This document shows positions 349 through 56,344 of a stretch of 64,000 nucleotides of DNA, piece after piece. The translations under genes and the position numbers were made by a program. Source of the stretch: an uncultured Prevotellaceae bacterium. Its GTDB lineage: Bacteria; Bacteroidota; Bacteroidia; Bacteroidales; Muribaculaceae. The stretch is taken from assembly GCA_900317325.1 (NCBI GenBank), contig ONGE01000012.1, positions 62,001 through 126,000 on the forward strand, read 5' to 3'. The notes below the pieces were generated by a model. That model was not told the origin of the DNA, did not search any database, and worked only from the letters and a program-made list of their open reading frames with translations. Within the stretch, counting starts at the first letter, position 1, and the number at the start of each line of letters is the position of its first letter.

Positions 349-408
349 CGCCGTTGATAATTGGGGTAAACCCTTGTATTGTAACTGATATTGAATCAAA
401 AACGGCTT

Positions 409-849
409 ATGCTCAAACAATTACGCTTGGTATTGCTGGCTGTGTTGACATTGACCGCCGTGTTGCCGATGGCAGCGCAGGTGCGTCATGTCACTACTGT
501 TAATCCCCTGTCCAAGCAGTCCTACATGGAGGTCTATGAGTTTGACTATGTGGACATCCAGCCCCAGTTCCCCGGTGGCGAGCGCGGCCTGATCAATTTC
601 ATCAACAAGACGCGAGAGTACCCCTACCATGCCTATAAGAAACGCATTCAGGGTCGAGTCCTGTGCAGTTTCATTGTCGGTGTTGACGGCAAGGTGAACG
701 ATGTGCGCGTGATAAGAGGTTCCGGCGACGACAGCCTTAACCGCGAAGCAATCCGCGTCATCGAGAAGATGCCCAAGTGGAGCGTGGGCAAGGTCGGCAA
801 TCATGCCGTTCCCGTCCGTGTAGTGCTCCCGATCAACTTCAGGCTCTGA
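409..849 (+). CDS. Secreted protein with TonB C-terminal (TonB_C) domain
   Basis: A 146-residue protein. I chose the ATG at 409, which begins a good signal peptide (MLKQLRLVLLAVLTLTAV, ending near AAQ); the frame stays open to a TTG at 391, but that adds a charged stretch before the signal. Residues of about 55-146 resemble the TonB C-terminal domain (GRVLCSFIVGVDGKVNDVRV, then a typical PKWSVGKV and VVLPINF end). Unlike real TonB there is no membrane anchor with a proline-rich linker, so it is probably a free periplasmic or outer-membrane-associated TonB_C protein, a class common in Bacteroidetes. It sits alone behind its own promoter; its partner is unknown. Confidence 0.75.
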   Translation: MLKQLRLVLLAVLTLTAVLPMAAQVRHVTTVNPLSKQSYMEVYEFDYVDIQPQFPGGERGLINFINKTREYPYHAYKKRIQGRVLCSFIVGVDGKVNDVRVIRGSGDDSLNREAIRVIEKMPKWSVGKVGNHAVPVRVVLPINFRL

Positions 850-1065: not shown

Positions 1066-3438
1066 ATGAAAAAAATTCTGTTTCTTGCCGTACTTTTATT
1101 GGCGGCGACACAGGCTTTTGCTGGGCAAGTCAGTTTAACCCAGGCCCAAGCCAAGGCAATGCATTTCTTGCAAAGTAATAACGCTAATCGCTTGAATGGC
1201 GCACCGGTAAGCAATCTCAAGTTGTTGTATGCCGAAACCGGTGAAGCCCGCATGGCTACTCCCGCTTATTACATCTTCAACGCCGACAATTCGTTTATCA
1301 TCGTCGCCGGTGATGACCGTGCCGAGGAGATTCTGGCCTACGGTGAAGGTACCCTCGAAATGAACACCATGCCCGAGAACATGAAGTTCTGGCTCAGTTA
1401 CTATGCCAAACAGATCGAATACCTGCAGCAGAATCCCGACCTCAAGGTCCGCAAGCCCGCGTTAAGGGATGGTGTTGATATTGAACCGATGATCGAGGCC
1501 ATGTGGGATCAAGGTGCTCCCTATTATAACCAGTGCCCGGGTGCAAGTGGTACGCATGCGATGACAGGCTGTGCCACTACATCGCTGGCCCAGGTATTTT
1601 ACTTCTGGAAATCTCCCACTACCCCCACGCCTGTCATTCCCGGTTACACGACGCGTAACAAGCAGTTCACGCTCCAGGAATTGCCTTCGGTGACATTCAA
1701 CTGGGCGAACATGCTTCCAACTTATAGGTTTGGCCAATACAATGATGCCAATGCCACAGCCGTGGCCCAGTTGATGCGCTACATCGGACAAGCCGAGGAA
1801 ATGAATTACGGCGTGACTGGCAGTGATGCTTGGGAAGATGACATCGCCAGGGCATGTGATCTCTTGGGCTATCAGGAGGCTGTCCCTGTCTATAAGAGCA
1901 CGATCAACTTCGACACCGATGAGGAGACGACCTATATCAACGACGAGGACTGGCTGGCCGAAATCTTGGGCGAACTCCAGGCTGGTCGCCCGATGGTGTT
2001 CTGTGCTTTTGACTACGTTAACGCTAACCATAACTACGTCGGCCATGCCTTCAACGTCGATGGATACAGGGCCTCGGACGGCCATTTCCATATCAACTGG
2101 GGCTGGAGCGGTACCGGTAATGGCTATTTTGCCATGAATGAGTTTGCCAACCAGGGTGCCAACTACCACATGGGCCAGCGCATCGTCAAGAACATTTATC
2201 CGTCGGTTGCCCAGGTGCCTACCATCATCATGGATCCGGCGCAACTGAACATGGCGACTCGCGTCGGTAGGCCCGTGACCAAGATGTTCACTGTCAAGGG
2301 TAAATTGCTCACCGATGACATCACCTTGACGTTGAATGATCCTGCCGGCGTGTTTGCCATCAATGCCACCACGTTGACGCCCGAGGAGTACGGTTACTAC
2401 AAATGGATCACCGTGACCTATGATCCTGATGTTGTGGGTAGCCATTCAGCAACAGTAACCTTGAGCAGCCCCGGAGCCGAGGATAAGGTGATTACGCTGA
2501 ACGGCTCGGCCGATATGGCTATCGCCGATCCCGTGATGCTGCCTGCTGATCCAAGCGCCATTACCCTCACATCGTTCCGTGCTGACTGGACCGACGAGAC
2601 TCCTGACGCTAACATTACAAGTTATACCCTCGATGTGGAACTCAAGCCCACTTACTATCTCGTCGGAGAAGTTGACTGGAGCAATGTGAGTGAGGGAAGT
2701 TTCTCGGCTGTGACAGCTAATGCTGCCAATTATTTCCCTGCCGGATGGACCTTTGCAGGTAATGATCTTTGGGCCGAGGATGGCTGTATCTCGATTAGCG
2801 GTAACTTCAGCTTCACTTCACCGACCTATAACCTGGTCGATGAGAAGAAAGCGACAGTGGTGCTTACTGCCAAGTCGGGTTACAATGCATCAAGTGTCAC
2901 GGTTTCGACAAGTGTCGACGAGAAGGTCGTTTCAATCGCTGACAGGTCATTCACACAATATGTGGTCGTTGTGAACTGTGACGATTTTGACAAGGTGACG
3001 ATTACCAACAAGAGTGGTAACCCCTACCTCTTGAATATGCAGATTTATGCCGGCCAGGAGGAAGCATCCAAGCTTCGCGCTACCGAGAGCGGCAATGAGA
3101 CCCACCGCACCATCACCGGCATCACCGATAAGTCCTACAAGGTAACTGGCCTGAGCGCCGGTGGCACTTTCTTCTACAAGGTGAAGGCCCACTACATCGA
3201 CAATACCGAGAGCGAGTGGAGCAATATCGAGGAGGTCACCCTGTCGGGTGATGCCTATGAGCTCGGCGACGTGAATCACGACGGCTTTGTAACCGTTACC
3301 GATGTGACTGCCCTCATCAATGCTCTGATGGCCAATGCTGAGCCTTGTCCCATCTGCTCTGACATCAATGGAGACGAAGCAGTCAATGTTACCGATGTAA
3401 TCATGCTGATCAATATGATCATGAGCAGCACTAACTGA
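1066..3438 (+). CDS. C10 family (streptopain-like) cysteine peptidase with dockerin, copy 1
   Basis: 790 residues. Signal peptide 1-19 (ends AFA), then a Spi/I69-like inhibitory prodomain to about 135 and a C10 peptidase domain to about 380. The catalytic set of streptopain is present: Cys169 in MTGCATTS, His327 in GHAFNVDGY, and Asn344-Trp345 in HINWGWSG. An Ig-like domain (about 386-482) follows. Next come two halves of an FN3-like domain (about 500-527 and 680-727) with a beta-rich insert between them. A type I dockerin ends the protein (from about 733), with two calcium loops starting DVNHDG and DINGDE and a CPIC motif between them. It is predicted to be secreted as an inactive zymogen and to cut proteins outside the cell. 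First of four tandem paralogues; 39 nt separate it from the next. Confidence 0.9.
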   Translation: MKKILFLAVLLLAATQAFAGQVSLTQAQAKAMHFLQSNNANRLNGAPVSNLKLLYAETGEARMATPAYYIFNADNSFIIVAGDDRAEEILAYGEGTLEMNTMPENMKFWLSYYAKQIEYLQQNPDLKVRKPALRDGVDIEPMIEAMWDQGAPYYNQCPGASGTHAMTGCATTSLAQVFYFWKSPTTPTPVIPGYTTRNKQFTLQELPSVTFNWANMLPTYRFGQYNDANATAVAQLMRYIGQAEEMNYGVTGSDAWEDDIARACDLLGYQEAVPVYKSTINFDTDEETTYINDEDWLAEILGELQAGRPMVFCAFDYVNANHNYVGHAFNVDGYRASDGHFHINWGWSGTGNGYFAMNEFANQGANYHMGQRIVKNIYPSVAQVPTIIMDPAQLNMATRVGRPVTKMFTVKGKLLTDDITLTLNDPAGVFAINATTLTPEEYGYYKWITVTYDPDVVGSHSATVTLSSPGAEDKVITLNGSADMAIADPVMLPADPSAITLTSFRADWTDETPDANITSYTLDVELKPTYYLVGEVDWSNVSEGSFSAVTANAANYFPAGWTFAGNDLWAEDGCISISGNFSFTSPTYNLVDEKKATVVLTAKSGYNASSVTVSTSVDEKVVSIADRSFTQYVVVVNCDDFDKVTITNKSGNPYLLNMQIYAGQEEASKLRATESGNETHRTITGITDKSYKVTGLSAGGTFFYKVKAHYIDNTESEWSNIEEVTLSGDAYELGDVNHDGFVTVTDVTALINALMANAEPCPICSDINGDEAVNVTDVIMLINMIMSSTN

Positions 3439-3477
3439 TAACAAATCACTATAATCAATTAATATTAACTGTATTTT

Positions 3478-5871
3478 ATGAAGAAGTTTTTATTCCTCGC
3501 TGCGCTGGTGCTTGCTGCCCTGCAAGTCACTGCCGCCAATGTGGACCTGGCTACTGCCCAGCAGTCCGCCCAACGTTTTTTGATGACTCAGGCCGCTAAG
3601 GGCCGTTTCATGACCTCGGCTCCCGCCATCAAGTGGACCCATGAGGTGAAGACCACAAGCAACGCCGCACAGGCAGCTTACTACATCGTGAACACCGACC
3701 GTGGCTACGTCATCGTATCCGGTGACGACCGTGCACGCGAGATTCTCGCCTATGGTGACGGTTCTCTCGAGAACATGAACGATATCCCCGAGAACATGCA
3801 GTTCTTCCTGGATATGTACAAGGCCGAGATGGAGTACTTCCTGGCTCACCCCGACCAGCCGATCAAGGTTCGCAATGCTAACCTTGGCCAGACGGTTCAG
3901 CCGCTGTTGACTACGCTGTGGCAGCAGGGTAGCAATAACGGCAGGTCGCCCTATAACAGGCTGTGTCCGCAGTCAGGTGGTATGTATTGCCTCGTGGGAT
4001 GTGCTGCCGTTTCTCTGTCTCAGGTGATGAAGTTCTGGAATTATCCTGCAGGTTCTCCCGCCCTCCCCGAGTACACGGGTGAAAGAGGTGTCACTGCATC
4101 TGCTCTGCCTCCCATTACCTTTGACTGGGCTCACATGCTCAACTCCTACTCTAACGAAAACTGGAGCGAAGCCGAGCGTGACGCTATCTCCAACCTGATG
4201 CGTTATGTGGGCGGTGCATTGTTCATGGACTATAATCCCCAGATGAGCGGTGCCGACGAGGACCAGATGATGAATGCCATCAAGCTCTTCGGTTTTGATC
4301 CCAGTGCACACTATGTGCTCAAGAACAATTATGATCAGGCGATGACCGAGAACTACAATGATGATGAGTGGACGACCATGATGCAGACCGAGTTGATCGA
4401 GGGCCGTCCTCTGATGTATTGCGCTTACTCGTCAACGTCCTCCGGCGACAGCTTCTATGGCCATGCTTTCAATGTCGATGGTTACAATTCCAGCGATGAC
4501 ACCTATCATGTGAACTTCGGCCAATCCGAGGAGAGGAATGGCTGGTATGCATTCAACGCTTTCGGCTACGGTATCACCGTGTATAAGTACTTCCAGTTGA
4601 TGTTCGTTGATGTGAAGCCCAATCCCGAGGGTGTCGCTCTTCCCCCGCGCATCATTGCCAACATGCTGTATAATGCAATGGGTGATGAGGGCAACTATGT
4701 AGGTTGGAACATTCCTGTGAACGTGCATGTGATTGGTGCTGACTTGGCCGGTGATATCACTGTTACCGCGCATGACCAGGACGGTCTTATCGTACCTGCA
4801 ACCACCACCATCAGCCTGAACGAACTCAATCAGGATCCCGCTCATCACAAACTCTTGACGGTGTATGTTACCCCGCAAGAGGAGGGACCCTTCATGGGTT
4901 ATATCACCTTGAGCAGCCCTGGTGCCGAGCCCGTGGACGTTTACTTCTATGGTGATGCCGAAGCAGCTCCCCTGGTGAAGTATGATCCCCAGATGTACCC
5001 CGCCAACGAAGAAGCCATCACGCTGACCTCGTTCCGTGCCGACTGGAGCGACCGCACCCCGGCTCAACTGGTCGACAGCTACACGCTTGAGGTGAGTGCA
5101 CAGCCTGTTTATACCCTCAAGGCCGAAGCCGATTGGAGCAATGTTGCCTATTCCAGCACCAATATCTATAATAACCCCTCACAGGTGATTCCTGCTGATT
5201 GGGAGTTCAATGGTGGCGGCCTGTGGAAGGAAGGTGGCTACATCTCGATCAATTACAGCAGTAAGATTCTCTCGCCGAATCTGGATTTGACAGGTTGTAG
5301 CAAGGTGAAGGTTGAGTTCACCGGACGCACCGCCAGCGGCAGCACTGCATCGCTCACTGTATCGACCAGCGTGGATTCTAAGTCAATCAACCTCACCAAT
5401 ACGATGACCGACTATGTGGTAGAACTTGACTGCAGCGCTACCGACCGTGTGACCTTCACCGGCACGAACAGCTATCCCGGCTTCAAGAACATTAAGATCT
5501 ATGGCGGCCAGGTAGCAACCGGTGATGCTAATTATCGCCTCATCACCGGTATCACCGACAAGTCCTACACGGTAAATAACCTGGAAGCAGGCGGTACTTT
5601 CCAGTACAAGGTGAAGACCGTTTACAGCGACGGTACCGAGAGCGAGTGGAGCAACATCGAGCAGGTAACGCTGTTCGGCAGCGCCCACGCCTATGAGCTC
5701 GGTGACGTGAATCACGACGGCTTTGTAACCGTTACCGACGTGACCGCCCTCATCAATGCTCTGATGACCAATGATGAGCCCTGTCCCATTTGCTCTGACA
5801 TCAATGGAGACCAGGCCGTTAATGTCACCGACGTAATCATGTTGATCAACACGATCATGAGCGCCCAGTGA
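3478..5871 (+). CDS. C10 family cysteine peptidase with dockerin, copy 2 (altered active-site region)
   Basis: 797 residues with the same layout as copy 1: signal peptide (ends VTAA), Spi-like prodomain, C10 domain, Ig-like domain, interrupted FN3 domain and dockerin. Cys175 (LVGCAAVS) and His329 (GHAFNVDGY) are kept. The segment after the active-site Asn346 reads NFGQSEERNGW where the siblings have N-W/F-GW-S/N-G: Trp345 of copy 1 is Phe here and the next Trp is Gln. The dockerin, including CPIC, is nearly identical to that of copy 1. Probably cotranscribed with copy 1 because no promoter is visible in the gap; a strong terminator follows. Activity and specificity may differ from the siblings. 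Confidence 0.88.
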   Translation: MKKFLFLAALVLAALQVTAANVDLATAQQSAQRFLMTQAAKGRFMTSAPAIKWTHEVKTTSNAAQAAYYIVNTDRGYVIVSGDDRAREILAYGDGSLENMNDIPENMQFFLDMYKAEMEYFLAHPDQPIKVRNANLGQTVQPLLTTLWQQGSNNGRSPYNRLCPQSGGMYCLVGCAAVSLSQVMKFWNYPAGSPALPEYTGERGVTASALPPITFDWAHMLNSYSNENWSEAERDAISNLMRYVGGALFMDYNPQMSGADEDQMMNAIKLFGFDPSAHYVLKNNYDQAMTENYNDDEWTTMMQTELIEGRPLMYCAYSSTSSGDSFYGHAFNVDGYNSSDDTYHVNFGQSEERNGWYAFNAFGYGITVYKYFQLMFVDVKPNPEGVALPPRIIANMLYNAMGDEGNYVGWNIPVNVHVIGADLAGDITVTAHDQDGLIVPATTTISLNELNQDPAHHKLLTVYVTPQEEGPFMGYITLSSPGAEPVDVYFYGDAEAAPLVKYDPQMYPANEEAITLTSFRADWSDRTPAQLVDSYTLEVSAQPVYTLKAEADWSNVAYSSTNIYNNPSQVIPADWEFNGGGLWKEGGYISINYSSKILSPNLDLTGCSKVKVEFTGRTASGSTASLTVSTSVDSKSINLTNTMTDYVVELDCSATDRVTFTGTNSYPGFKNIKIYGGQVATGDANYRLITGITDKSYTVNNLEAGGTFQYKVKTVYSDGTESEWSNIEQVTLFGSAHAYELGDVNHDGFVTVTDVTALINALMTNDEPCPICSDINGDQAVNVTDVIMLINTIMSAQ

Positions 5872-5941
5872 TAGGGTGTAAACCCGTGGCAGATATTGGC
5901 ATCGCATGAATCTGCTAAGGTTCAGTTCGCGAAGCCATCAT

Positions 5942-5983
5942 ACAATGGAGACGCATGATTTGCGTCTCCATTGTGTGTTTTTG
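5942..5983 (+). terminator. Rho-independent terminator after C10 copy 2
   Basis: A perfect 14-bp inverted repeat, ACAATGGAGACGCA (5942-5955) and its complement (5961-5974), has a 5-nt loop and is followed by a T-rich stretch. It closes the copy 1-copy 2 transcription unit. The rest of the 306-nt gap up to 6178 holds the promoter of the next gene and nothing else I recognise. Confidence 0.85.
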
Positions 5984-6014
5984 CTGTCTTTCTTTGCATA
6001 TTTTTTGGGAAAAG

Positions 6015-6045
6015 TTGCCGTTTTCAGTAATTCTCTATACATTTG
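6015..6045 (+). promoter_or_regulatory. Promoter for C10 copy 3
   Basis: TTG at 6015-6017, 20 nt, then TACATTTG at 6038-6045, a full -33/-7 match. The start codon is 133 nt downstream, so the mRNA would have a fairly long leader. Confidence 0.6.
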
Positions 6046-6177
6046 TGACCTCAATCATTCTATTGCCATTAACCTGCCACCTGTTACCTGTCGACAGGCT
6101 GTACAGAGCTGGATTCGTGTCATTAGCCGTGATCAAGAATTAACCATCATTTACTATATTAAAAACAACAGCGTTAT

Positions 6178-8556
6178 ATGAAGAAATTGTTTTTGATTGC
6201 CGCTATAGTTTTAGCTGCTTTACAGATGTCGGCGGTCGATGTGGACCTGGCTCATGCCACCGCCACTGCAAAGCGTTTCATTAACGTGAAAGCCACTGCA
6301 AAAGCGTTGCATAACACTTCAACCAACAGTCTGAAGCTGATTCACACCGAGGTGAATTCATCGAACGCAATTCAGGCAGCCTATTACATCTTCAACTATG
6401 ACCATGGCTTCATCATCGTCTCGGGCGATGACAGGTCCAAGGCGATTTTGGCCTATGGTGACCAGCCTGTGGACATGGCCATGATGCCTGCCAACATGAA
6501 ATACTGGCTTTCCTGCTACAAGCGCCAGCTGGAGTTTCTGCAAACCCACCCCGACCTGCATGTCACCCTGCCAGCAACCGGCAGCACGTTGCGAGCAGGA
6601 CAGTCGGTCGATCCGCTCATCACGGCCAACTGGAGCCAGAATTCGCCCTATTGGAACGAGTGCCCGGCCTTTGGTACCGACACTTGCTTCACGGGATGCC
6701 CCGCCACCTCGCTGGCGATGGTGTTCCATTACTGGAAATACCCCAGGCAGCAGACGCCTGCCGCACCGTCTTATTTGTTGCCGCAGTATGGCGTGGTGTT
6801 GCCCGAACTGCCCCCGACGGTCTTTGATTGGGACAACATGATCGACAACTATGTTGGCTTCGATTACACCCCCGAGCAGGCAACCGCCGTTGCCCACCTG
6901 ATGCGCTACATCGGTCAGGTCGAGGAGATGGATTACACCATCTCAGGCAGCGGAGCCTACCTCAACGATATTCTACGCGCCGTCAAGTTCTTTGAGTATG
7001 ACCAGAATGCTCAGATGCTGTACAAGAGCGATGAATTGGGCTATCAGAATTACAGCGACAGCCAGTGGGCAACGCTCATCCAGAACGAGTTGACGGCAGG
7101 TCGCCCCATCGTGTATTGTGCCTACGATAACACGACGGGTTCGGGCCATGCCTTCAATGTGGACGGTTATGACGCTGCTGCCGACGCCTATCACATCAAC
7201 TGGGGATGGAATGGCAGGGGAAACGGCCATTTTGCTCTCAATGCCTTCTCCTATCAGGGCTACACCTTCGGCACCGGGCAGCAGATGGTCATCGGCATTC
7301 AACCGCCCGAGGACTATCAGCGTCCGCGTCTGCAGGTCTATCCCAATGTCATCGAGATGCAGAGCTATATCAACCGGACCACAACGGCCACCTTCTCGCT
7401 CAAGGGCACCAACATCCCGGGCGACGTGACCTTGACATTGAATGATGCCGACGGCGTGTTCAGCATCGATGCCGCCAATGTGGCTCAGGCTGTCGCCGAG
7501 GGCGGTACCGCCATCACGGTGACTTATGCTCCCACGGTTGTCGGTTTCAACACCGCCACCATCACCTGCACCTGTGAAGGCACCGATCCCGTGACCATCA
7601 CGCTTCACGGTACAGCTCCGCTCGAGGTTTATCCCCTGCAGATGCTGCCTGCCGACGAGAACAGGGTGACACTCACCTCGTTCCGGGCCGATTGGCGTGA
7701 CCAGACTCCGGCTGGTAATGTGGACAGCTACACGCTTGATGTGCAGGCCAAGCCTGCCTACAGCCTCCTTGTGGAAGCTGACTTCAGCGAGTTGCCCGAG
7801 ATGGCGCCCGCTAACCAGGCTTCGCATGCCGCCGACTATCTGCCTGAGGGATGGACCTTCAACGGCAGTGAGTTCAACCTCGAGGGCGGTTGCGTGAGCA
7901 TGCGCCGCAACGGCACCATCACCACCGACGAGTTGAACTTGAGGGGCTATGACAAGATGACCATCGAGATTACCGCCAGGGCCTATGGTTTTTATGGCGA
8001 CGGGTCGGAACTCTATGTGACCACCAGTGCAGGAACCCAGGAATTGGTGTTCATGTATGCTTTCGAAACCAAGACGATAGTAGTGGACTGCGCCGAGACC
8101 GAGCGGGTGGTATTCAAGGCTGGCTATTACCCCATGATCAAGGATATCAAGATCTATGCCGGCGACGCCACGCAAACGGCTTCGCTCAGGGCAACAGAGT
8201 CGGGCGACGCCACCTGGCGCCTAATCGAAGGCATTTCCGGTCAATCCTACACGGTGCGCGACTTGACTGCTGGCGGGACCTTCCTTTACAGGGTCAAGGC
8301 ATTGTACATCGATGGCACCGAGAGCGAGTGGAGCAATGTCGAAATGGTGACGCTTGCCGAGGGTGGTCACACTTATGAGACAGGTGACGTGAACCACGAC
8401 GAGATCGTCAACATCACCGATGTAACGCTGTTGATCAGCAGCATCATGCAGAACGTCATGGACATCTGCCCGATTTGTGCCGACATGAATGATGATGGCA
8501 ATATCAACATCACCGATATCACAATGCTGATCAATGCAGTGCTCGGTGCTGATTGA
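6178..8556 (+). CDS. C10 family cysteine peptidase with dockerin, copy 3
   Basis: 792 residues. Signal peptide (ends QMSA), Spi-like prodomain, then a C10 domain with Cys174 in FTGCPATS, His324 in GHAFNVDGY and Asn341-Trp342 in HINWGWNG, so the streptopain active site is intact. An Ig-like domain (about 385-480) follows, then an FN3-like domain split by a beta-rich insert, and a C-terminal dockerin with loops starting DVNHDE and DMNDDG and the sequence CPIC between them. Predicted secreted or surface endopeptidase made as a zymogen. It has its own promoter and a hairpin terminator, so it is likely controlled separately from copies 1 and 2. Confidence 0.9.
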   Translation: MKKLFLIAAIVLAALQMSAVDVDLAHATATAKRFINVKATAKALHNTSTNSLKLIHTEVNSSNAIQAAYYIFNYDHGFIIVSGDDRSKAILAYGDQPVDMAMMPANMKYWLSCYKRQLEFLQTHPDLHVTLPATGSTLRAGQSVDPLITANWSQNSPYWNECPAFGTDTCFTGCPATSLAMVFHYWKYPRQQTPAAPSYLLPQYGVVLPELPPTVFDWDNMIDNYVGFDYTPEQATAVAHLMRYIGQVEEMDYTISGSGAYLNDILRAVKFFEYDQNAQMLYKSDELGYQNYSDSQWATLIQNELTAGRPIVYCAYDNTTGSGHAFNVDGYDAAADAYHINWGWNGRGNGHFALNAFSYQGYTFGTGQQMVIGIQPPEDYQRPRLQVYPNVIEMQSYINRTTTATFSLKGTNIPGDVTLTLNDADGVFSIDAANVAQAVAEGGTAITVTYAPTVVGFNTATITCTCEGTDPVTITLHGTAPLEVYPLQMLPADENRVTLTSFRADWRDQTPAGNVDSYTLDVQAKPAYSLLVEADFSELPEMAPANQASHAADYLPEGWTFNGSEFNLEGGCVSMRRNGTITTDELNLRGYDKMTIEITARAYGFYGDGSELYVTTSAGTQELVFMYAFETKTIVVDCAETERVVFKAGYYPMIKDIKIYAGDATQTASLRATESGDATWRLIEGISGQSYTVRDLTAGGTFLYRVKALYIDGTESEWSNVEMVTLAEGGHTYETGDVNHDEIVNITDVTLLISSIMQNVMDICPICADMNDDGNINITDITMLINAVLGAD

Positions 8557-8590
8557 GGTTGTGAGATAAATTACTGAAAATAAGTAATAT

Positions 8591-8656
8591 ACAGGGCTGC
8601 CACTGAATGGCTGGGACTTGGGATGTTCAGGTGCTATAAGGGGTGCCCTGTTTTTG
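8591..8656 (+). terminator. Probable terminator after C10 copy 3
   Basis: ACAGGGC (8591-8597) pairs with GCCCTGT (8645-8651), followed by TTTT. An inner pairing of CACTGAA with TTCAGGTG extends the structure. The long loop makes this weaker than the other terminators here. Confidence 0.5.
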
Positions 8657-8702
8657 GCTAGTAGCAAATTGTTTAATATTGTAATAAATTTGGTTAAAAT
8701 TG

Positions 8703-8733
8703 TTGTAATTTCGCCAAAAAAGGAGTACTTTTG
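8703..8733 (+). promoter_or_regulatory. Promoter for C10 copy 4
   Basis: TTG at 8703-8705, 20 nt, TACTTTTG at 8726-8733: a full -33/-7 match about 90 nt before the ATG at 8825. Confidence 0.7.
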
Positions 8734-8824
8734 CGACTCTTATGAGTCGTTGCGTGTCGCAAGGTCTCGTGAGGTTATTTTTTTGTCCTGGAGCAAAACA
8801 ATTATTTAATAACATTAATGGCTT

Positions 8825-11233
8825 ATGAAAAGATTCTTATTCTGTGTCGCAGTCTTGTTTGCGGCAATTCAGCTTTCGGCTGCCCCTGTTGATATGGCAA
8901 CAGCGCAGGCCAAGGCGCAAAATTTTGTGCAGCAGCACAAGTATGGTGGCGTTTTAAGGGCTCCTCTCAGCGGGAGAATGACGTTGGCGCATGCCGAAAT
9001 GAATTCCCGAAAGCTGGACCGTGCCGTGTTCTACATCTTCAATTCCAGCAACGGCTATGTTATCGTTTCGGGTGATGACCGTGCCGAGGAAATCCTTGGT
9101 TATGGCGATGGCCAGTTGGACATCAACACGATACCTTGCAACATGAAGGCCTGGCTGGCTACCTACAAGGAGCAGATCGAGTATCTCCAGGACCATGAGG
9201 GTTTGCAGGTCGAGACGCCGTCGATGATGGCGCCGTCGTTGCGCATTCCCAGTGTCGCCCCGTTGCTGACCGCCGAGTGGGACCAGGAGGCCCCCTACTG
9301 GAACATGTGCAAGATCAACAATTACCAGTGCTTGACAGGTTGCCCTGCCACGTCGGCTGCCATGGTGTTCCACTACTGGAAATATCCTGACTACATGACT
9401 CCCGAGGTGCCCGGTTACAAGTGCACGCTGAGCACGGGCTACTATTCAACCCAGAGTGTGAATGTCCCTGCTTTGCCTCCTGTGGTTTTTGATTGGGAAC
9501 ACATGAGAGATAAATACACCAGCAACTATACGAGCGAGGAAGCCAATGCCGTAGCAACGCTGATGCGTTATGTGGGCCAGGCCGAGCGCATGGAGTATGG
9601 TACCAGTGCAGCCGGCGGTAGCGGTGTGGCTGCCGACAGCGTTATCCTGATTGTCAATGCATTCAAGCTCTTCGGCTATGATGAGGAAACCGTTCGCATG
9701 GTGAAAAAGACCAGTTCCTATAGCGGTGGTACCACCCTCTATACCGATGCTGAATGGGCTGCCATCATTCAGGAGGAACTCATTGAGGAACGTCCCATCG
9801 TGTTCTGTGCCATCGCAGGTGGCTTCTTCGGCGGCGGCCATGCCTTCAATGTTGACGGTTATGATGCCAATACCAACAAGTACCACGTCAACTTCGGTTG
9901 GAGTGGTTCATCCAACAACTATTATGCCCTCAACGCCTTCAATGGTGATGGCTCGACATTCAACCAGTACCAGCAGATGGTGATTGGTATCCAGCCTCCT
10001 CTCACCTCGCCGCGCCTGCGTGCCGACAAGAGCGAGTTGTCGATGGAATGCTACAAGAACCAGACCGATGTGGCCAGCTTCACAATCACCGGACGCAATC
10101 TTGAGGACAAAGTCACGCTTACCCTCAACGACGAGAACGGCGTGTTCAGCATTGATGAGAGTTCGTTTGATCCCAACGATGAGAACAGGCTTGAGCGTAC
10201 TGTCGAAGTGACCTATTCTCCCAAGGCCGAAGGCGAGTACACCGCCACGCTGACTTGCAGCACGCCCGGCGTCGATGACATCGTCATCACACTGCACGGA
10301 GCTTCGCAATATGAGCTTTATCGCCCTGTCATGCTGGATGCCGATGAGCAGGCAATCACTTCCACCTCGTTCCGTGCTGACTGGACCGACAACACTCCTG
10401 TCGAGAACGTCGTGAGCTACTCCCTCGAGGTGCGCGTGAAGCCTGATGTGGTCTTGCTGGCCGAGGCCGACTGGAGCGATGTGCCCCAGGAGAGCACCAA
10501 CCATGCTTCGGATGCTGCCAACTATCTTCCCGACGGTTGGACTTTCACCGGAGACCACTTCTACCTTGACGGCGGTTGTATCTCAGCAAACCGTAACAAT
10601 GTGTTGGATCCGAACTGTGACTTGGCGGGCTACTCCACGGTGAGTGTCATCATCAAAGCCAGGGCTTACCCCAAGGGTAAGAACACGACGCTGGATGTTA
10701 TTACCGATCAGGCTTCAAGGACCATCATGCTGGCCCAGGATTTCGACACCTATCTGGTAGTGCTCCCGGTGGGCGACGATGGTTATGTCAAGATCAGAAC
10801 GGGTTATTACCCCAATATCCAGAGCATCAAGATTTATGGTGGTGAAATCACCGATCCTGAGCCCTTCGCCCTGCGTGGAACTGGTGACGACGATTATCAC
10901 CTGATCGAGGGTATTACTCCCGATAAGTTCTATACCGTGACCGGCCTCATGCCCGCAACTCCTTACTTGTATCGTGTAAAGGCCTTCTATGTGAACGGTA
11001 CCGAGAGCTCGTGGAGTAACACCAAGGAGGTTCTCCTCAAGGAGGGTCAGATTCTCCGCGGCGACGTGGACGGTGACGGCCAGGTTGAGTTGACCGATGT
11101 TACCGTGTTGATTACGGCACTGCTCACCGAGGACTTCTCTTCGGTGAATATGGAGGCTGCCGACTTCAATGAAGACGGCGCGGTCAACATCGCTGATGTG
11201 ACCTTGCTGATCAATTACATCGCTTCGTTATGA
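8825..11233 (+). CDS. C10 family cysteine peptidase with dockerin, copy 4
   Basis: 802 residues. Signal peptide (ends QLSA), Spi-like prodomain, C10 domain with Cys173 in LTGCPATS, His339 in GHAFNVDGY and Asn356 in HVNFGWSG (Phe where copies 1 and 3 have Trp, but the second Trp is kept). Ig-like domain, interrupted FN3-like domain, then a dockerin with loops starting DVDGDG and DFNEDG. This dockerin lacks the CPIC motif of copies 1-3 and is the most divergent of the four. Predicted secreted zymogen. It stands alone between its own promoter and a perfect terminator. Confidence 0.9.
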   Translation: MKRFLFCVAVLFAAIQLSAAPVDMATAQAKAQNFVQQHKYGGVLRAPLSGRMTLAHAEMNSRKLDRAVFYIFNSSNGYVIVSGDDRAEEILGYGDGQLDINTIPCNMKAWLATYKEQIEYLQDHEGLQVETPSMMAPSLRIPSVAPLLTAEWDQEAPYWNMCKINNYQCLTGCPATSAAMVFHYWKYPDYMTPEVPGYKCTLSTGYYSTQSVNVPALPPVVFDWEHMRDKYTSNYTSEEANAVATLMRYVGQAERMEYGTSAAGGSGVAADSVILIVNAFKLFGYDEETVRMVKKTSSYSGGTTLYTDAEWAAIIQEELIEERPIVFCAIAGGFFGGGHAFNVDGYDANTNKYHVNFGWSGSSNNYYALNAFNGDGSTFNQYQQMVIGIQPPLTSPRLRADKSELSMECYKNQTDVASFTITGRNLEDKVTLTLNDENGVFSIDESSFDPNDENRLERTVEVTYSPKAEGEYTATLTCSTPGVDDIVITLHGASQYELYRPVMLDADEQAITSTSFRADWTDNTPVENVVSYSLEVRVKPDVVLLAEADWSDVPQESTNHASDAANYLPDGWTFTGDHFYLDGGCISANRNNVLDPNCDLAGYSTVSVIIKARAYPKGKNTTLDVITDQASRTIMLAQDFDTYLVVLPVGDDGYVKIRTGYYPNIQSIKIYGGEITDPEPFALRGTGDDDYHLIEGITPDKFYTVTGLMPATPYLYRVKAFYVNGTESSWSNTKEVLLKEGQILRGDVDGDGQVELTDVTVLITALLTEDFSSVNMEAADFNEDGAVNIADVTLLINYIASL

Positions 11234-35657: not shown

Positions 35658-38600
35658 TTAAAAACGCACCTTGCTGCTCTTCACAGCGCCGCTGCGGTAG
35701 CGGGTTACCACAATGTTGACGCCATCGAACGGCTGCTTGCTCTGAACACCGGCCATGTTCACATAGGTTACCGACTCGATCTCGTCGGCATCGGCGGCAA
35801 TCGAGGTGATTGCGGTCTGGTTGCCCATGTTCACGGTGACGAGGGTTACCTCCTGGGTGTTGCTGGTGGCGGTGGTGCCGTCCACATAGTTGGCAACGAT
35901 GTAGATGCTGTAGGTACCACCCTCAACCAGGTTGCTCAAGGTGAGGCCGCGGCTGCTGGCGTCGATGTCGGTGATGACAAAGTCGGTGTTGTCGCCGGTT
36001 GCCGTAGCGTTGAGGTTCATCGTGCCTGCATAGATGGCGATATAGGCCATATCGGGCGAGTAGCTGCTGTCGGTCGAGTAGATGGTGATCTTGTCACCTG
36101 CACTTGCCGTTACTGTCCAGGTCTTAGTGCCGCCCTGTGAGAAGCTGTAGGTTACAGCCGAGGTCTTGGCCGACTTCACGGTGATGGTACCGGAACCATA
36201 GCTGGTGTTGGCAGTGGTGATCTGAACAGTGAAGGTGGCGTTGCTGTAACCCGAGGGAACAGTGAAGGTGATGCTGCCATAGCTTGTGCTCCACCATGAA
36301 GACGAGTTCTTGGTGTAGATGGCACCGTTACCTGCCTTCACGTTGCTGCCGCCCCAAGGCGAGGTCAGCGTGATGCTGGCGTAGCTGCCGGTGTAGTTGC
36401 TGCCGTCGAGGGCACCCAGCAGCGTGTTCGTGGGCTCGTCACCACCGCTGGGTTGAGCGGTCAGCGTGCCATACATCGTGTAGCTCGATACCGACGATGT
36501 CGATACATCGTGGGTCCAGTTAGCGGTGAAGCTGGTGCTGGAAACGACGGTGGCTGCATTCATCACGGGATTGGCCTTGTCAAGCGTAGCGGTACCGGTG
36601 ATGGAAACGGTCTTGCTCGTTGCGCCCGAGCTGGCCACTGCCACACTTGCGGTCTGAGTGCCATAAGCCGTGGGCTTGTAGGTCACGGTCACGTTGACAC
36701 CGTTGGCGGCATTGGCTGCCGTGATGGTGGTCGGCGAGATGCTGAAGACGTCTGAACCGCTCTTGGTCAAGGTCACGTTGCCGGTGAGGTTAGCACCCGT
36801 TACCTTGAAGGTTGCGGTAGCAGTGCCGTCAACCTTAGCGCTCATGTTCAGGCTGGTGGGGGTTACGGTCAGCGTGGGAGTTGCAGCGGGTGCATCCTCG
36901 TTGAGGGTGACGTTCTGCTCGTTACTCCAAGCGCTTGAGGTGCCATCGGTATAGAGGGCTTTCACCTTATAAGTATAGGTAGCGCCTGCAGTCAGGTTGC
37001 TGACGGTGTAATACTTGTTGGTGATGCCAGTGATGGTGCGTGCGTCGGCGTCACCGCTCTCGCTGGCATTGAGGTTGATGTTGCCGGCATAAACCTGAAT
37101 CAGCGACATGTCGGGCGAGTAGCTGGCGTCGGTGGTGGTGAGGGTGATCTTTTCACCAGCGCTACCGGTTACAATCCAGGTGTAGGTCTCACCCTTGCTG
37201 AAGGTGTGGCCCACAGCCGAGGTCTGGGCCGACTTCACGGTAACGTTACCCGTGCCATAGGTGCCACTGACTGTGGTGATCTTGACACTGAAGGTGGCAT
37301 TGCTGTAACCCGTAGGAATGGTAAAGGTGATATTGCCGCTCTTGGTGAAGTAAACGGCATTGTTACCACCCTTCACGTTGGTGCCGCCCCAGGGCGAACT
37401 CAGCGTGATGGTCTTGTAGCTGCCGGTGTAGCTGCTGCCGTTGATGGTGCCCAGCAACGTCGTCGTGGTCGGTGTCGAGCTGCCTTGTTTGTTCACTTGC
37501 AGGGTGTAGCTCGATACGTTGGAGCTGGTGGTCTGGTCGGTCCAGTCGGCACGGAAGCTCGAGCTGGTGACGTAGTTGCTGTTGGGCGAGCTCATCACGG
37601 GTGTGTAGGTCGTGAGAGCTGCAGCCGTTGCGGTACCCGACAAGGAAACGGTCTTGCTGGTGGCTCCGCTGCTGGCAATCGTGATGCTGCCCGTCTGGGT
37701 GCCGGCTGCCGTGGGCTTGTAGGTCACGGTAACGGTGGCGCCGCTGGCTGCTGCGCTGGCACTGATGGTAGTGGGCGAGATGGTGTAAACGCCATTGGCA
37801 TCGCTCTTGCTCAGGGTTACATTGCCGGTCAGGTTGGAACCGGTAACGGTAAAGGTCTTGCTCACGGTCTGGCCAGCGGTGGTGCTGAACGACAGTGAGG
37901 TGGGGCTAACGGTCAGCGTCGGGGTGGCACTGCTGCCACTGGGCGGCTGGATACCGATAACCATCTGCTGATATACACTGAAGTTGTAGCTGCTGTAGCC
38001 GAAGGAGTTCAGCGAGCACCATGCGTTACCGTCGCCACTCCAACCGAAGTTGATGTGGTACTTGTTGGTGCTGCTGTTGTAACCGTCGACGTTGAAGGCG
38101 TGGCCACCGGCGCTGGAGCTCACGGCACAGAAGACGATGGGACGTCCAGCGGCCATCTCCTCCTGAATCATGGCTGCCCACTGTGAGTCGGTGTACAGCG
38201 TGGAACCGCCGCTGTAGGCACTGGTCTTCTTGACGAAGCGCGTGGTGCTTGGGTCGTAACCGAAGAAAGTGAAAGCGTCGCGAATGTTGCAAACACTGTC
38301 AACACTCACACCGCTACCATTCACTCCGTAACCCATGCGCTCGGCCTGACCCACATAGTGCATCAGTGTGGCAACAGCGGTGCCCTGAGCGGTCGTGTAA
38401 CCACTGGTATAGTTGTCCAGCATGTTGGCCCAGTCAAACGTTGTCGAAGGCAGTGCCGAGTGGGTGTAGCTCTTTGTGCTGTAGCTGGAGACACTGATGG
38501 TCGACTTGTAGCCGGGAACAACGGGAGTAGCAGCTGTGGGGTACTTCCAGAAGTAGAATACCATCGAGGCCGACGTTGCGGGGCAACCGGTCAGACACTG

Positions 38601-39104
38601 GTAGCTACCGAACTTACACTGGTTGTAGTAAGGTGCTTCCTGGTCCCAGTTGCAGGTCAGCAGTGGGCCGTAGGTGGTGGCATTCAGTTTCTGGGGAGGC
38701 GTCTGAACGCTCGTGGGCTCCAGTCCCGGGTGCTCCTGCAGGAACATGATCTGATCCTTGTACTGCCCGAGCATGTCTTGCATACCCAACGGCAGGTTGT
38801 AGACATCCCTGAGGGGGCGGTCACCCACCATGAGGATTTCGTCGGCGCGGTCATCACCGGCGACTACAACAAAGGTCGTGGAGGTGTTGAAGATGTAATA
38901 GACAGGTTCGTTCAATTTAACGTGACCTAACTCGGCCTTGAGCAGTACTGGCTTGGTAGCTGCAGGGGCCATGAATCTACCTGCGTAAAACTGGTCTGTT
39001 AAGAAACTCTGTGCCTTACGCGCAGCCGTCACCTGGTCAACAGGTGCGGCCATTGATGACATCGCCAGCATGGCGGCGGTCAGGAAAAATAATAATTTCT
39101 TCAT
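35658..39104 (-). CDS. Large C10 family cysteine peptidase with duplicated Ig-FN3 modules
   Basis: 1148 residues, the fifth and largest C10 protein in the window. Signal peptide (ends SSMA), Spi-like prodomain and C10 domain with Cys174 in LTGCPATS, His335 in GHAFNVDGY and the NFGWSG segment. After the catalytic domain the Ig-like plus interrupted FN3 module seen in the other copies occurs twice in a row (about 410-740 and 750-1075). Each FN3 carries its own Ser/Thr/Gly-rich insert containing SPWGG and SYSPDM. There is no dockerin; the C-terminus (VTYVNMAGVQSKQPF, then VVTRYRSGAVKSSKVRF) looks like a T9SS-type sorting tail. Predicted surface protease made as a zymogen. Confidence 0.88.
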   Translation of the reverse strand: MKKLLFFLTAAMLAMSSMAAPVDQVTAARKAQSFLTDQFYAGRFMAPAATKPVLLKAELGHVKLNEPVYYIFNTSTTFVVVAGDDRADEILMVGDRPLRDVYNLPLGMQDMLGQYKDQIMFLQEHPGLEPTSVQTPPQKLNATTYGPLLTCNWDQEAPYYNQCKFGSYQCLTGCPATSASMVFYFWKYPTAATPVVPGYKSTISVSSYSTKSYTHSALPSTTFDWANMLDNYTSGYTTAQGTAVATLMHYVGQAERMGYGVNGSGVSVDSVCNIRDAFTFFGYDPSTTRFVKKTSAYSGGSTLYTDSQWAAMIQEEMAAGRPIVFCAVSSSAGGHAFNVDGYNSSTNKYHINFGWSGDGNAWCSLNSFGYSSYNFSVYQQMVIGIQPPSGSSATPTLTVSPTSLSFSTTAGQTVSKTFTVTGSNLTGNVTLSKSDANGVYTISPTTISASAAASGATVTVTYKPTAAGTQTGSITIASSGATSKTVSLSGTATAAALTTYTPVMSSPNSNYVTSSSFRADWTDQTTSSNVSSYTLQVNKQGSSTPTTTTLLGTINGSSYTGSYKTITLSSPWGGTNVKGGNNAVYFTKSGNITFTIPTGYSNATFSVKITTVSGTYGTGNVTVKSAQTSAVGHTFSKGETYTWIVTGSAGEKITLTTTDASYSPDMSLIQVYAGNINLNASESGDADARTITGITNKYYTVSNLTAGATYTYKVKALYTDGTSSAWSNEQNVTLNEDAPAATPTLTVTPTSLNMSAKVDGTATATFKVTGANLTGNVTLTKSGSDVFSISPTTITAANAANGVNVTVTYKPTAYGTQTASVAVASSGATSKTVSITGTATLDKANPVMNAATVVSSTSFTANWTHDVSTSSVSSYTMYGTLTAQPSGGDEPTNTLLGALDGSNYTGSYASITLTSPWGGSNVKAGNGAIYTKNSSSWWSTSYGSITFTVPSGYSNATFTVQITTANTSYGSGTITVKSAKTSAVTYSFSQGGTKTWTVTASAGDKITIYSTDSSYSPDMAYIAIYAGTMNLNATATGDNTDFVITDIDASSRGLTLSNLVEGGTYSIYIVANYVDGTTATSNTQEVTLVTVNMGNQTAITSIAADADEIESVTYVNMAGVQSKQPFDGVNIVVTRYRSGAVKSSKVRF

Positions 39105-54061: not shown

Positions 54062-56344
54062 TCAGTCGTTAGGTTGCATGAGTTTTCCGATGAGTAGGGT
54101 GACATCATTGATGTTGACCAAGCCGTCACCATTGCCGTCAGCATTCTCGGCATTGAAATTCGAGTCATCGCCAGTCATCAGATAATTAATCATGCTGATA
54201 ACGTCGCTGATGTTCACTGAGCCGTCCATGTTCACATCGCCAAACTCACCTGCATCGCCAACTATTTGTGCGAAATTCTTCCAATAATCAGCGGCTCGGT
54301 ATGCAGCCAGCGATGAAGCGGGAACGTGGAGGGTACCCGAATAATCAGTGAATGAATTGCTGTCACAGGCGGGAGGCGTCATCGCTGCGCAATAAACATG
54401 AGTAGGCTTGATGTACATGCCCTTAACTCCCGTAATCTGGCCGTTGATGTGCAGTTCGACAGGCCTCTGAATCATGATGGTTCCGCCTCTCCATTCTCCT
54501 TCACCGGTCAGCGTTAAAGAAGAAATGTGATAGCAGCTTTCAAACGCATAGTAGGCCAGCGATGTGACCGAGGTCGGGATAGTCACGCTTGCCAGGCCAT
54601 AGCAGTTTGCAAAAGCGTAATAGCCTATCGTCGTGACACCCTTCGGGATGATCACAGTCTCAAGACTGCTGCAGCCCGAGAACGTGTACTCGTCGATAAC
54701 AGTGATGGAATTACTCAGGGTCACGCTCGTCATGAAGCTGCAATTCTCAAACGCGCTGAAGCCGATGGTGGTGACCGAATTGGGGATGACAACGCCCGTG
54801 AGGGCACTGCAGCCGTAGAATGCGGTATTGCCGATTGAAGTGACGGAGTTGGGGATGGTCACATTCGTCAGGCTGCTGCAATCACGGAATACACCGTAAT
54901 TAATCATGGTAAGAGCATTGCTGAGGGTCGCGCTCGTCATGCCGGAGCAGCCATCGAAGGCGCTGTTGCCCAAGGAAGTCACCGAGTCGGGAACCTTGAT
55001 GCTGGTCAACATCTTGCACCCTGAAAAAGCCCTGGAGGCAATAGTCGTGACTGTGCTGGGAATCGATATACTCGTCATGCCGGAGCAGTATTGGAAGGCG
55101 CTGGCGCCGATGGTGGTGACACCCTCGGGGAGGGTGACGTTCGTCAGACTGCTGCAGCTGCTGAATGCGGCAATGCCGATCGAAGTGACTGCGTTACCGA
55201 AGGTCACACTCGCCAGATTACTGCATCCAGCAAAGGCGTTGCTGCCGATGGAGGTGACGGTGTTAGGGATGGTCACGCTCGTCAGGACGCGGCAACGGCA
55301 AAAAGTCATGTCGTTAATCGCGGTGAGAGCGTTGCTGAGGGTTACGCTCGCCAGGCTGCTGCAATCGGCGAAGGCGCCCGAGCCGATGGTAACGACCGAG
55401 TTGGGAATGGTAGCGCTTTGCAAACTGCTGCAGCCCGAGAATACGCTCTTGCCGATGGCGGTGACCGAACTGGGGATGGTTACACTTGTCAGGTTGGTGC
55501 AACTATTGAAAGCGCCATTGCCGATGGTGGTGACCGAACTGGGAATGGTTACGCTCGTCAGACTCGTGGCACCGACAAACGCATAACTGCCGATGGCATT
55601 GAAATAACCCGGAATGGCCAGATTTGTCACCTCGGTGCCATTCAAGTAAAGATGTTTGGCAAAATACAGAGGATTGGCTTTCTCGTTTTCAAAATTGATC
55701 TTGGACCAGTTGGTAATATTTTCAATGTTTACGCGCTGCAGAGCCGAACAATCCACAAACGCGTTCTTGCTCACGGTAGTGAGGGCATTGCCCATGGTCA
55801 CGCTCGTGAGTCCACTGCATCGATTGAAGGCAGATTCACCGATGGTGATGACCGAGTTGGGGATGGTCACAGTAGTCAGGCTGGAGCAGCCGCTGAATGT
55901 CCAAGTGCCGATGGAGCGGACCGAGTTGCCTATTGTCACGTTCGTCATGCCGTCGCAGTAGGAGAATGCGCCGTTGCCGATGGTGGTGACCGAATTAGGG
56001 ATGACTATGCTTGTCAACCGACTGTCGTAATCAAAGACATAGTTGCCGATCGAGGTGACCGTATTGGGAATCTCAACACCCGTCAGGTTGTTGCATCGTT
56101 CAAATGCACCATCGCCAATGGCTGTGACCGGATAGGTGATGCCGTCATGAGTGACCGTCTCGGGGATTACGACTAGACCCGAATACTCAACATACTGTGA
56201 AGGATTCATTCCTTGATAGGTCACAGTGGCTTCATTGCCATTGATGTTGTAATAGATGCCATCGACCTCAAAGTCGTGGGCCGATGCGATTGCTGGCAAA
56301 GAGATTGCCATAACCAGAAGTGCGGTTTTGATGAACTGTTGCAT
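54062..56344 (-). CDS. BspA-like leucine-rich repeat protein with C-terminal dockerin
   Basis: 760 residues. Signal peptide (ends IASA), then an N-terminal strand similar to the neighbour (EVDGIYYNINGNEATVTYQG) and about 20 LRR_5 repeats, most with the pattern CSSLTNVTIPNSVTSIG. The last 60 residues form a type I dockerin with two loops starting DVNMDG and DGNGDG. The second loop is of normal length, with no CPIC motif. It is predicted to be secreted and probably surface-bound; the combination of BspA repeats and a dockerin suggests assembly with a cohesin-bearing partner that is not in the window. Lies upstream of the BspA-like lipoprotein on the same strand. Confidence 0.87.
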   Translation of the reverse strand: MQQFIKTALLVMAISLPAIASAHDFEVDGIYYNINGNEATVTYQGMNPSQYVEYSGLVVIPETVTHDGITYPVTAIGDGAFERCNNLTGVEIPNTVTSIGNYVFDYDSRLTSIVIPNSVTTIGNGAFSYCDGMTNVTIGNSVRSIGTWTFSGCSSLTTVTIPNSVITIGESAFNRCSGLTSVTMGNALTTVSKNAFVDCSALQRVNIENITNWSKINFENEKANPLYFAKHLYLNGTEVTNLAIPGYFNAIGSYAFVGATSLTSVTIPSSVTTIGNGAFNSCTNLTSVTIPSSVTAIGKSVFSGCSSLQSATIPNSVVTIGSGAFADCSSLASVTLSNALTAINDMTFCRCRVLTSVTIPNTVTSIGSNAFAGCSNLASVTFGNAVTSIGIAAFSSCSSLTNVTLPEGVTTIGASAFQYCSGMTSISIPSTVTTIASRAFSGCKMLTSIKVPDSVTSLGNSAFDGCSGMTSATLSNALTMINYGVFRDCSSLTNVTIPNSVTSIGNTAFYGCSALTGVVIPNSVTTIGFSAFENCSFMTSVTLSNSITVIDEYTFSGCSSLETVIIPKGVTTIGYYAFANCYGLASVTIPTSVTSLAYYAFESCYHISSLTLTGEGEWRGGTIMIQRPVELHINGQITGVKGMYIKPTHVYCAAMTPPACDSNSFTDYSGTLHVPASSLAAYRAADYWKNFAQIVGDAGEFGDVNMDGSVNISDVISMINYLMTGDDSNFNAENADGNGDGLVNINDVTLLIGKLMQPND

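Follow-up and report, generated by a model that had tools for sequence, protein, structure and literature searches.

Four tandem C10 peptidases with terminal dockerins as candidate clients of a proposed T9SS-anchored cohesin–dockerin coat in a Muribaculaceae genus

The window, a 64-kb stretch of a Muribaculaceae genome (G000:C32:62001-126000; genome 3.47 Mb, 94% complete), carries four full-length C10 peptidase paralogues, A–D, lying head to tail on the forward strand as the first-pass annotation had described (Table 1). All four are uninterrupted open reading frames (ORFs) of 790–802 residues. Each begins with a signal peptide, followed by an I69 (Spi-like) prodomain and the C10 catalytic domain; an Ig/sandwich region comes next, and the terminal module is a type I dockerin with two calcium loops. 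The secretion signals, inhibitor prodomains and dockerin tails noticed earlier were thus borne out, with Pfam scores of 146–169 bits for Peptidase_C10 (PF01640; cut-off 26), 67–73 bits for Inhibitor_I69 (cut-off 25) and 35.5–52 bits for Dockerin_1 (PF00404; cut-off 22.9). Only 3–5 residues separate the end of the dockerin match from the stop, and a C-terminal T9SS sorting domain is absent from A–D, which finish in the dockerin. All five copies (A–E) have the streptopain Cys and His motifs, as claimed, and the PDB zymogens of interpain A and streptopain align with A and B. Copy B keeps the Cys, His and Asn; its proteolytic activity is less certain than that of A, because HVNFGQ takes the place of HINWGW after the catalytic His region. 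The genes are spaced by 39 bp (A–B), 306 bp (B–C) and 268 bp (C–D), and their pairwise identity is 38–44% over the full length, so the array is probably old. Upstream of A lies a short ORF (window positions 391–849), which we take to resemble a TonB C-terminal domain protein.

Table 1. Features of the window, in window positions.
Feature	Position	Strand	Remarks
C10 peptidase A	1066..3438	+	signal peptide, I69, C10, Ig/sandwich region, terminal dockerin
Dockerin of A	3256..3435	+	loop 1 class T, loop 2 Ile at the same position; CPIC between loops
C10 peptidase B	3478..5871	+	terminal dockerin; HVNFGQ versus HINWGW in A
Dockerin of B	5692..5868	+	loop 1 class T, loop 2 Ile at the same position; CPIC
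C10 peptidase C	6178..8556	+	terminal dockerin
Dockerin of C	8374..8553	+	loops T/T; CPIC
C10 peptidase D	8825..11233	+	terminal dockerin
Dockerin of D	11051..11230	+	loops T/T; best solved chains are cellulosomal dockerins (CelS)
C10 peptidase E	35658..39104	-	A–D-like body, middle module duplicated, no dockerin
T9SS-like C-terminal tail of E	35658..35819	-	short; resembles cohesin-protein tails
BspA-like LRR protein	54062..56344	-	terminal dockerin; further client

The fifth paralogue, E, had been listed with the others, and its C10 and I69 body stands (both matched by Pfam) while the dockerin does not (no Pfam dockerin match). E shares 36–43% identity with A–D up to their residues 728–740, about where their dockerins start; its middle module is duplicated, and a short tail follows in the dockerin's place. 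This tail was assigned by its resemblance to the tails of cohesin proteins (on contig C10 of the same genome and in congeners G165 and G166); the Pfam and NCBIfam tail models do not match it.

Across the source genome, at least 155 dockerin matches were found (150 scored among 288 candidates), and the 150 listed matches map to the 149 dockerin ORFs examined here. A crude home-made rule assigned a Sec signal to 143 of these ORFs and a lipoprotein-type signal to one, leaving five with neither; at least three of the positives are plainly false (fragments of 53–59 residues). In the 147 of 149 ORFs whose dockerin position was read, the dockerin is terminal in 121, 21–60 residues from the end in 3, internal in 14 and N-terminal in 9; two of the internal or N-terminal ones have no stop in the stretch, and A was placed in the 21–60-residue group by a listed match covering one loop only, the Pfam scan making it terminal. 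Proteins with N-terminal or internal dockerins on contigs C17, C20, C21, C29, C30 and C42 (L194–L203) include formylglycine-enzyme-like proteins, so labelled by eye, and others, and show no T9SS tail at their C-termini by eye. Near-identical dockerin ends lie at most about 1.2 kb from contig ends at C20:289274, C24:27727 and C44:51804, and more dockerin genes may therefore be hidden by assembly breaks at repeats.

A Pfam scan of the 130 dockerin ORFs that are 80 residues or longer and end in a stop identified the families that carry these modules. At least 29 are peptidases; among the families listed, C10 with I69 accounts for 17, M6 for at least 7 and S8 for at least 5. The complex proposed in the first-pass annotation was proteolytic, and in this respect the proposal was too narrow, as BspA-like LRR proteins (30), CotH (10), alpha-amylase (6), CBM26 (6) and endonuclease I (at least 4) also appear among the listed families of dockerin ORFs; a dockerin-bearing cellulase was not among them. 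The genome encodes 22 C10 domains, 17 of them with a terminal dockerin. In a further C10 gene (C10:773; G000:C10:272-2651, L191) the frame ends before the dockerin, which resumes in another frame, reflecting either a broken gene or an assembly error. Judged by eye, and with no Pfam dockerin, C20:103654 and C25:125527 have apparent degenerate dockerin remnants, and C36:104809 resembles E in having a T9SS-like tail.

Calcium loops were recognized by pattern in the 149 dockerins, with two loops in 126, one in 22 and none in 1. The residue at position 14 defined the class of a loop, and those at 11 and 18 mostly agreed with it: class T has T/S at 14, mostly T/S at 11 and mostly N/S at 18, and class N has N at 14, mostly A at 11 and mostly D at 18. 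Among the loop pairs, 61 were T/T, 41 N/N and none T/N, and 24 had another residue in at least one loop. The classes are sequence hints of binding specificity, and the absence of T/N pairs could also be expected from a recent common origin of both loops. All six dockerin genes located 5–16 kb upstream of the window start (C32:46-57 kb, within C32:43597-57963), one of them a C10 peptidase, are N/N. Furthermore, a CxxC motif between the loops was found in 11 dockerins, all on peptidase genes (8 C10, 2 M6 and 1 S8, the M6 and S8 counts being minima), that is, in 11/30 peptidase versus 0/100 other ORFs of the 130 scanned (Fisher test P=1.9 × 10−8, ignoring gene relatedness); the eight C10 genes include the frame-broken one, whose dockerin was already among the 130.

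No cohesin match lies inside the window, as first noted. The genome-wide cohesin search proposed at that stage was run, and cohesins, whose absence had been named as speaking against the complex, are encoded elsewhere in the source genome, mostly on proteins with T9SS-like tails; the idea of a dockerin-assembled surface complex therefore gains strong genomic support. The Pfam cohesin model (PF00963; gathering cut-off 24.1) gave one match on the source genome at 22.0–22.2 bits, 16.5 bits on its small cohesin protein and no reported match on its 852-residue scaffoldin. The cut-off was passed by 2/9 cohesin proteins scanned, those of congener G150 (37.7) and of G003 (58.8), and the cohesins of both match our profile A1, as do those of the source genome. 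Because the Pfam model misses or under-scores the latter, a verdict from PF00963 alone that there is no cohesin and hence no complex was rejected as wrong. In the predicted model of the L234 orthologue a cohesin fold is present, and the top structural matches are cohesins (best Foldseek E-value 3.6 × 10−7). At the level of gene presence, the genome has a multi-cohesin scaffoldin and dockerin-bearing enzymes, as expected of a cellulosome; since the Pfam scan placed no cellulose-binding module (CBM) on the 852-residue scaffoldin, the system is not filed here as a cellulosome.

The scaffoldins carry a dockerin and a T9SS-like tail on one protein. The Pfam tail model PF18962 gave 7 weak matches in the source genome, of which 3 were above cut-off and none lay on a cohesin ORF, and our tail profile A2 matched 9 places, 4 of them its own seeds; such places are few next to the number of dockerins. 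A2 missed the tails in 3/6 cohesin ORFs, which were assigned by a second small profile (A3 seed) or by eye. An enrichment test of tails on cohesin ORFs (3/6 versus 2/143; Fisher test P=3.6 × 10−4) was not relied on, as the profiles were seeded from the same ORFs, which makes it partly circular, and as C21_36383, with its weak and doubtful cohesin match, was included. The T9SS gene SprA is present in full at C20:16725-24002; C18:29711-31042 holds a further SprA-like match, which is partial and contains two TGA codons in frame.

The pairing of the two modules extends through the genus. All 18 congeners searched have dockerins (29 to at least 145 matches) and cohesins (1–15 matches), and in 12 genomes of other families cohesins were found in 1 (G003) and dockerins in 5, of which four have just one match. 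Two further genera of the same family, represented in the order sample, have no dockerin or one weak dockerin match, and no cohesin match. In congeners G158 and G159, a protein of six tandem cohesins and a terminal dockerin adjoins a dockerin–cohesin–tail protein, a gene pair that by analogy looks like the adaptor and anchor of classical cellulosomes; the tail of the G158 anchor scores 16.4 against TIGR04183, below the cut-off of 23. Throughout the order sample (149 genomes, with at most 40 dockerin candidates scored per genome), cohesin matches occurred in 16/56 dockerin-positive and 2/93 dockerin-negative genomes. SprA was found in 140/149, so that T9SS presence cannot discriminate; dockerins occurred in 1/9 genomes without SprA (G059) versus 55/140 with it (Fisher test P=0.15). 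Genomes G094, G095, G107 and G119 have many dockerin-like matches, those listed starting mostly from model position 8–11, and no match to the cohesin profile used; perhaps these matches represent another module, or the partners are other cohesins.

Taken together, we give a probability of about 0.7 to the reading that A–D are clients of a T9SS-anchored cohesin–dockerin coat, rich in peptidases, adhesins and amylases, in this Muribaculaceae genus, the proteases probably being parts of a large modular surface enzyme coat. The computed evidence is the domain make-up, the cohesin fold of the orthologue, the T9SS gene and the genus-wide co-occurrence; from it we infer docking and its need for calcium, a position at the cell surface, the order of activation and the way clients are exported. 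In this reading, divergent cohesins encoded outside the window would receive the dockerins of A–D as plugs. About 150 proteins, nearly all of them with a signal peptide, bear a plug of this kind, in most cases at the very C-terminus. A few carriers hold the cohesins. Anchor scaffoldins have cohesins, in many cases also a dockerin, and end in a T9SS-like sorting tail; soluble adaptors combine cohesins with a terminal dockerin. The T9SS would export and attach the anchor scaffoldins, and calcium-dependent cohesin–dockerin pairing would bring in adaptors and clients, giving a three-tier surface coat with zymogen peptidases, LRR adhesins, amylases and nucleases, in which the I69 prodomain may hold each C10 peptidase silent until it is docked outside the cell.

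Client export is the weak point of the coat model. One tentative answer, to which we give a low probability, is that the dockerin serves as the genus's general surface-sorting tag: folded clients lacking a T9SS C-terminal domain (CTD) would attach to a cohesin carrier while still in the periplasm, and the T9SS translocon would pull the complex out on the carrier's CTD, one scaffoldin ferrying many zymogens. If true, clients would leave by piggyback export through the T9SS. A direct sorting role of the terminal dockerin, in place of the CTD and with no cohesin involved, is unlikely. A–D and E do swap tails on the same body, most dockerins are terminal (121/147), and a streptopain (C10) homologue is reported among T9SS-tail proteins of the same family (PMC4936053, accessible text); the 9 N-terminal and 14 internal dockerins nevertheless argue against a plain C-terminal signal, several of the proteins bearing them show no T9SS tail by eye, the cohesin folds are real, and the scaffoldins bear dockerin and tail together. 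Equally improbable is a community role, with the proteases as public goods whose dockerins attach to cohesins from other gut bacteria or to shed scaffolds: cohesins are few per dockerin, and the accessible part of PMC4035507 speculates on such sharing for Ruminococcus albus 8, yet this genome encodes its own cohesins with T9SS-like tails and cohesin matches occur in 18/18 congeners searched. That the dockerins are mere calcium-binding caps stabilizing the C-terminus of periplasmic or released enzymes would suit the missing T9SS tail of A–D and the 40/56 dockerin-positive order-sample genomes without a match to the cohesin profile used, and is slightly less likely still given the lack of T/N mixing between loops, the genus-wide co-occurrence of dockerins and cohesins and the several positions that dockerins occupy within proteins.

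Most known examples of cellulosome-type modularity come from Gram-positive bacteria that degrade cellulose. The accessible text of PMC6118326 agrees, and a cellulosome survey (PMC11557425) required dockerin-fused glycoside hydrolases, with 'Bacteroid' occurring, in the portion seen, only in its references. Among Bacteroidetes, excerpts of PMC5831590 (rumen) describe a genome without cohesins or dockerins, called consistent with other Bacteroidetes genomes; the listed rows of PMC6071333 include bins in which dockerins number as many as 11 and cohesins are few or absent; and PMC10266427, in the part available, reports dockerins in some Bacteroidales single-cell genomes. The available main text of PMC4936053, which lists the streptopain homologue, does not use the word dockerin, and the available parts of PMC3796261, PMC8810776, PMC6690062 and PMC4035507 describe no such system; in the open-licence literature we found no published case of T9SS-anchored scaffoldins in Bacteroidota. 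Because the Pfam model misses or under-scores cohesins in the source genome, the present results may account for bins with dockerins and no detected cohesin such as those listed in PMC6071333. A gut Muribaculaceae genus seems to use cohesin–dockerin modules at large scale, with a Gram-negative anchor and with protease, adhesin and amylase clients. The most interesting question, now testable, is how the outer membrane is crossed by about 150 dockerin proteins, of which hardly any has a T9SS signal.

Clostridial and ruminococcal cellulosomes are built from cohesin–dockerin modules, with adaptor and anchor scaffoldins and clients bearing C-terminal dockerins. The same modules, scaffoldin tiers and C-terminal client dockerins recur here at the gene level; the differences are probable anchoring by a T9SS-like tail in a Gram-negative, a scaffoldin without a CBM (Pfam) and clients that are mainly LRR proteins and peptidases. 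A–D share the zymogen make-up of I69 prodomain and C10 catalytic domain with streptopain, interpain A and Bacteroidales C10 peptidases and differ from streptopain and interpain A in bearing a dockerin; the T9SS-tailed streptopain homologue of the same family (PMC4936053, as far as its text was available) corresponds to E rather than to A–D. Ruminococcus albus and R. bromii, as portrayed in the accessible part of PMC6118326, have many dockerins and few cohesins, and a lone cohesin may anchor isolated enzymes; the high dockerin-to-cohesin ratio and the amylases among the clients recur here, in another phylum, with another anchor and a peptidase-rich set. The closest precedent found, again from a partly available text (PMC8542988), is Candidatus Stygibacter (Cloacimonadota), for which a cellulosome-like complex for protein and polysaccharide breakdown was proposed; the same text mentions a planctosome for polypeptide degradation. 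A peptidase-bearing, CTD-anchored cohesin scaffold had already been proposed there, which qualifies the novelty first suggested for such a complex. Stygibacter belongs to another phylum, the passages available name four dockerin enzymes compared with about 150 dockerin ORFs here, and C10/I69 clients, LRR clients and an adaptor tier are not named in them. Both systems have C-terminal dockerins on peptidases (there S8/S53 and C25, alongside amylase/mannosidase and chitinase homologues), and both have a multi-cohesin scaffoldin, here with a putative CTD-type anchor, the scaffoldin-like protein of Stygibacter combining tandem cohesins with a C-terminal domain for surface attachment.
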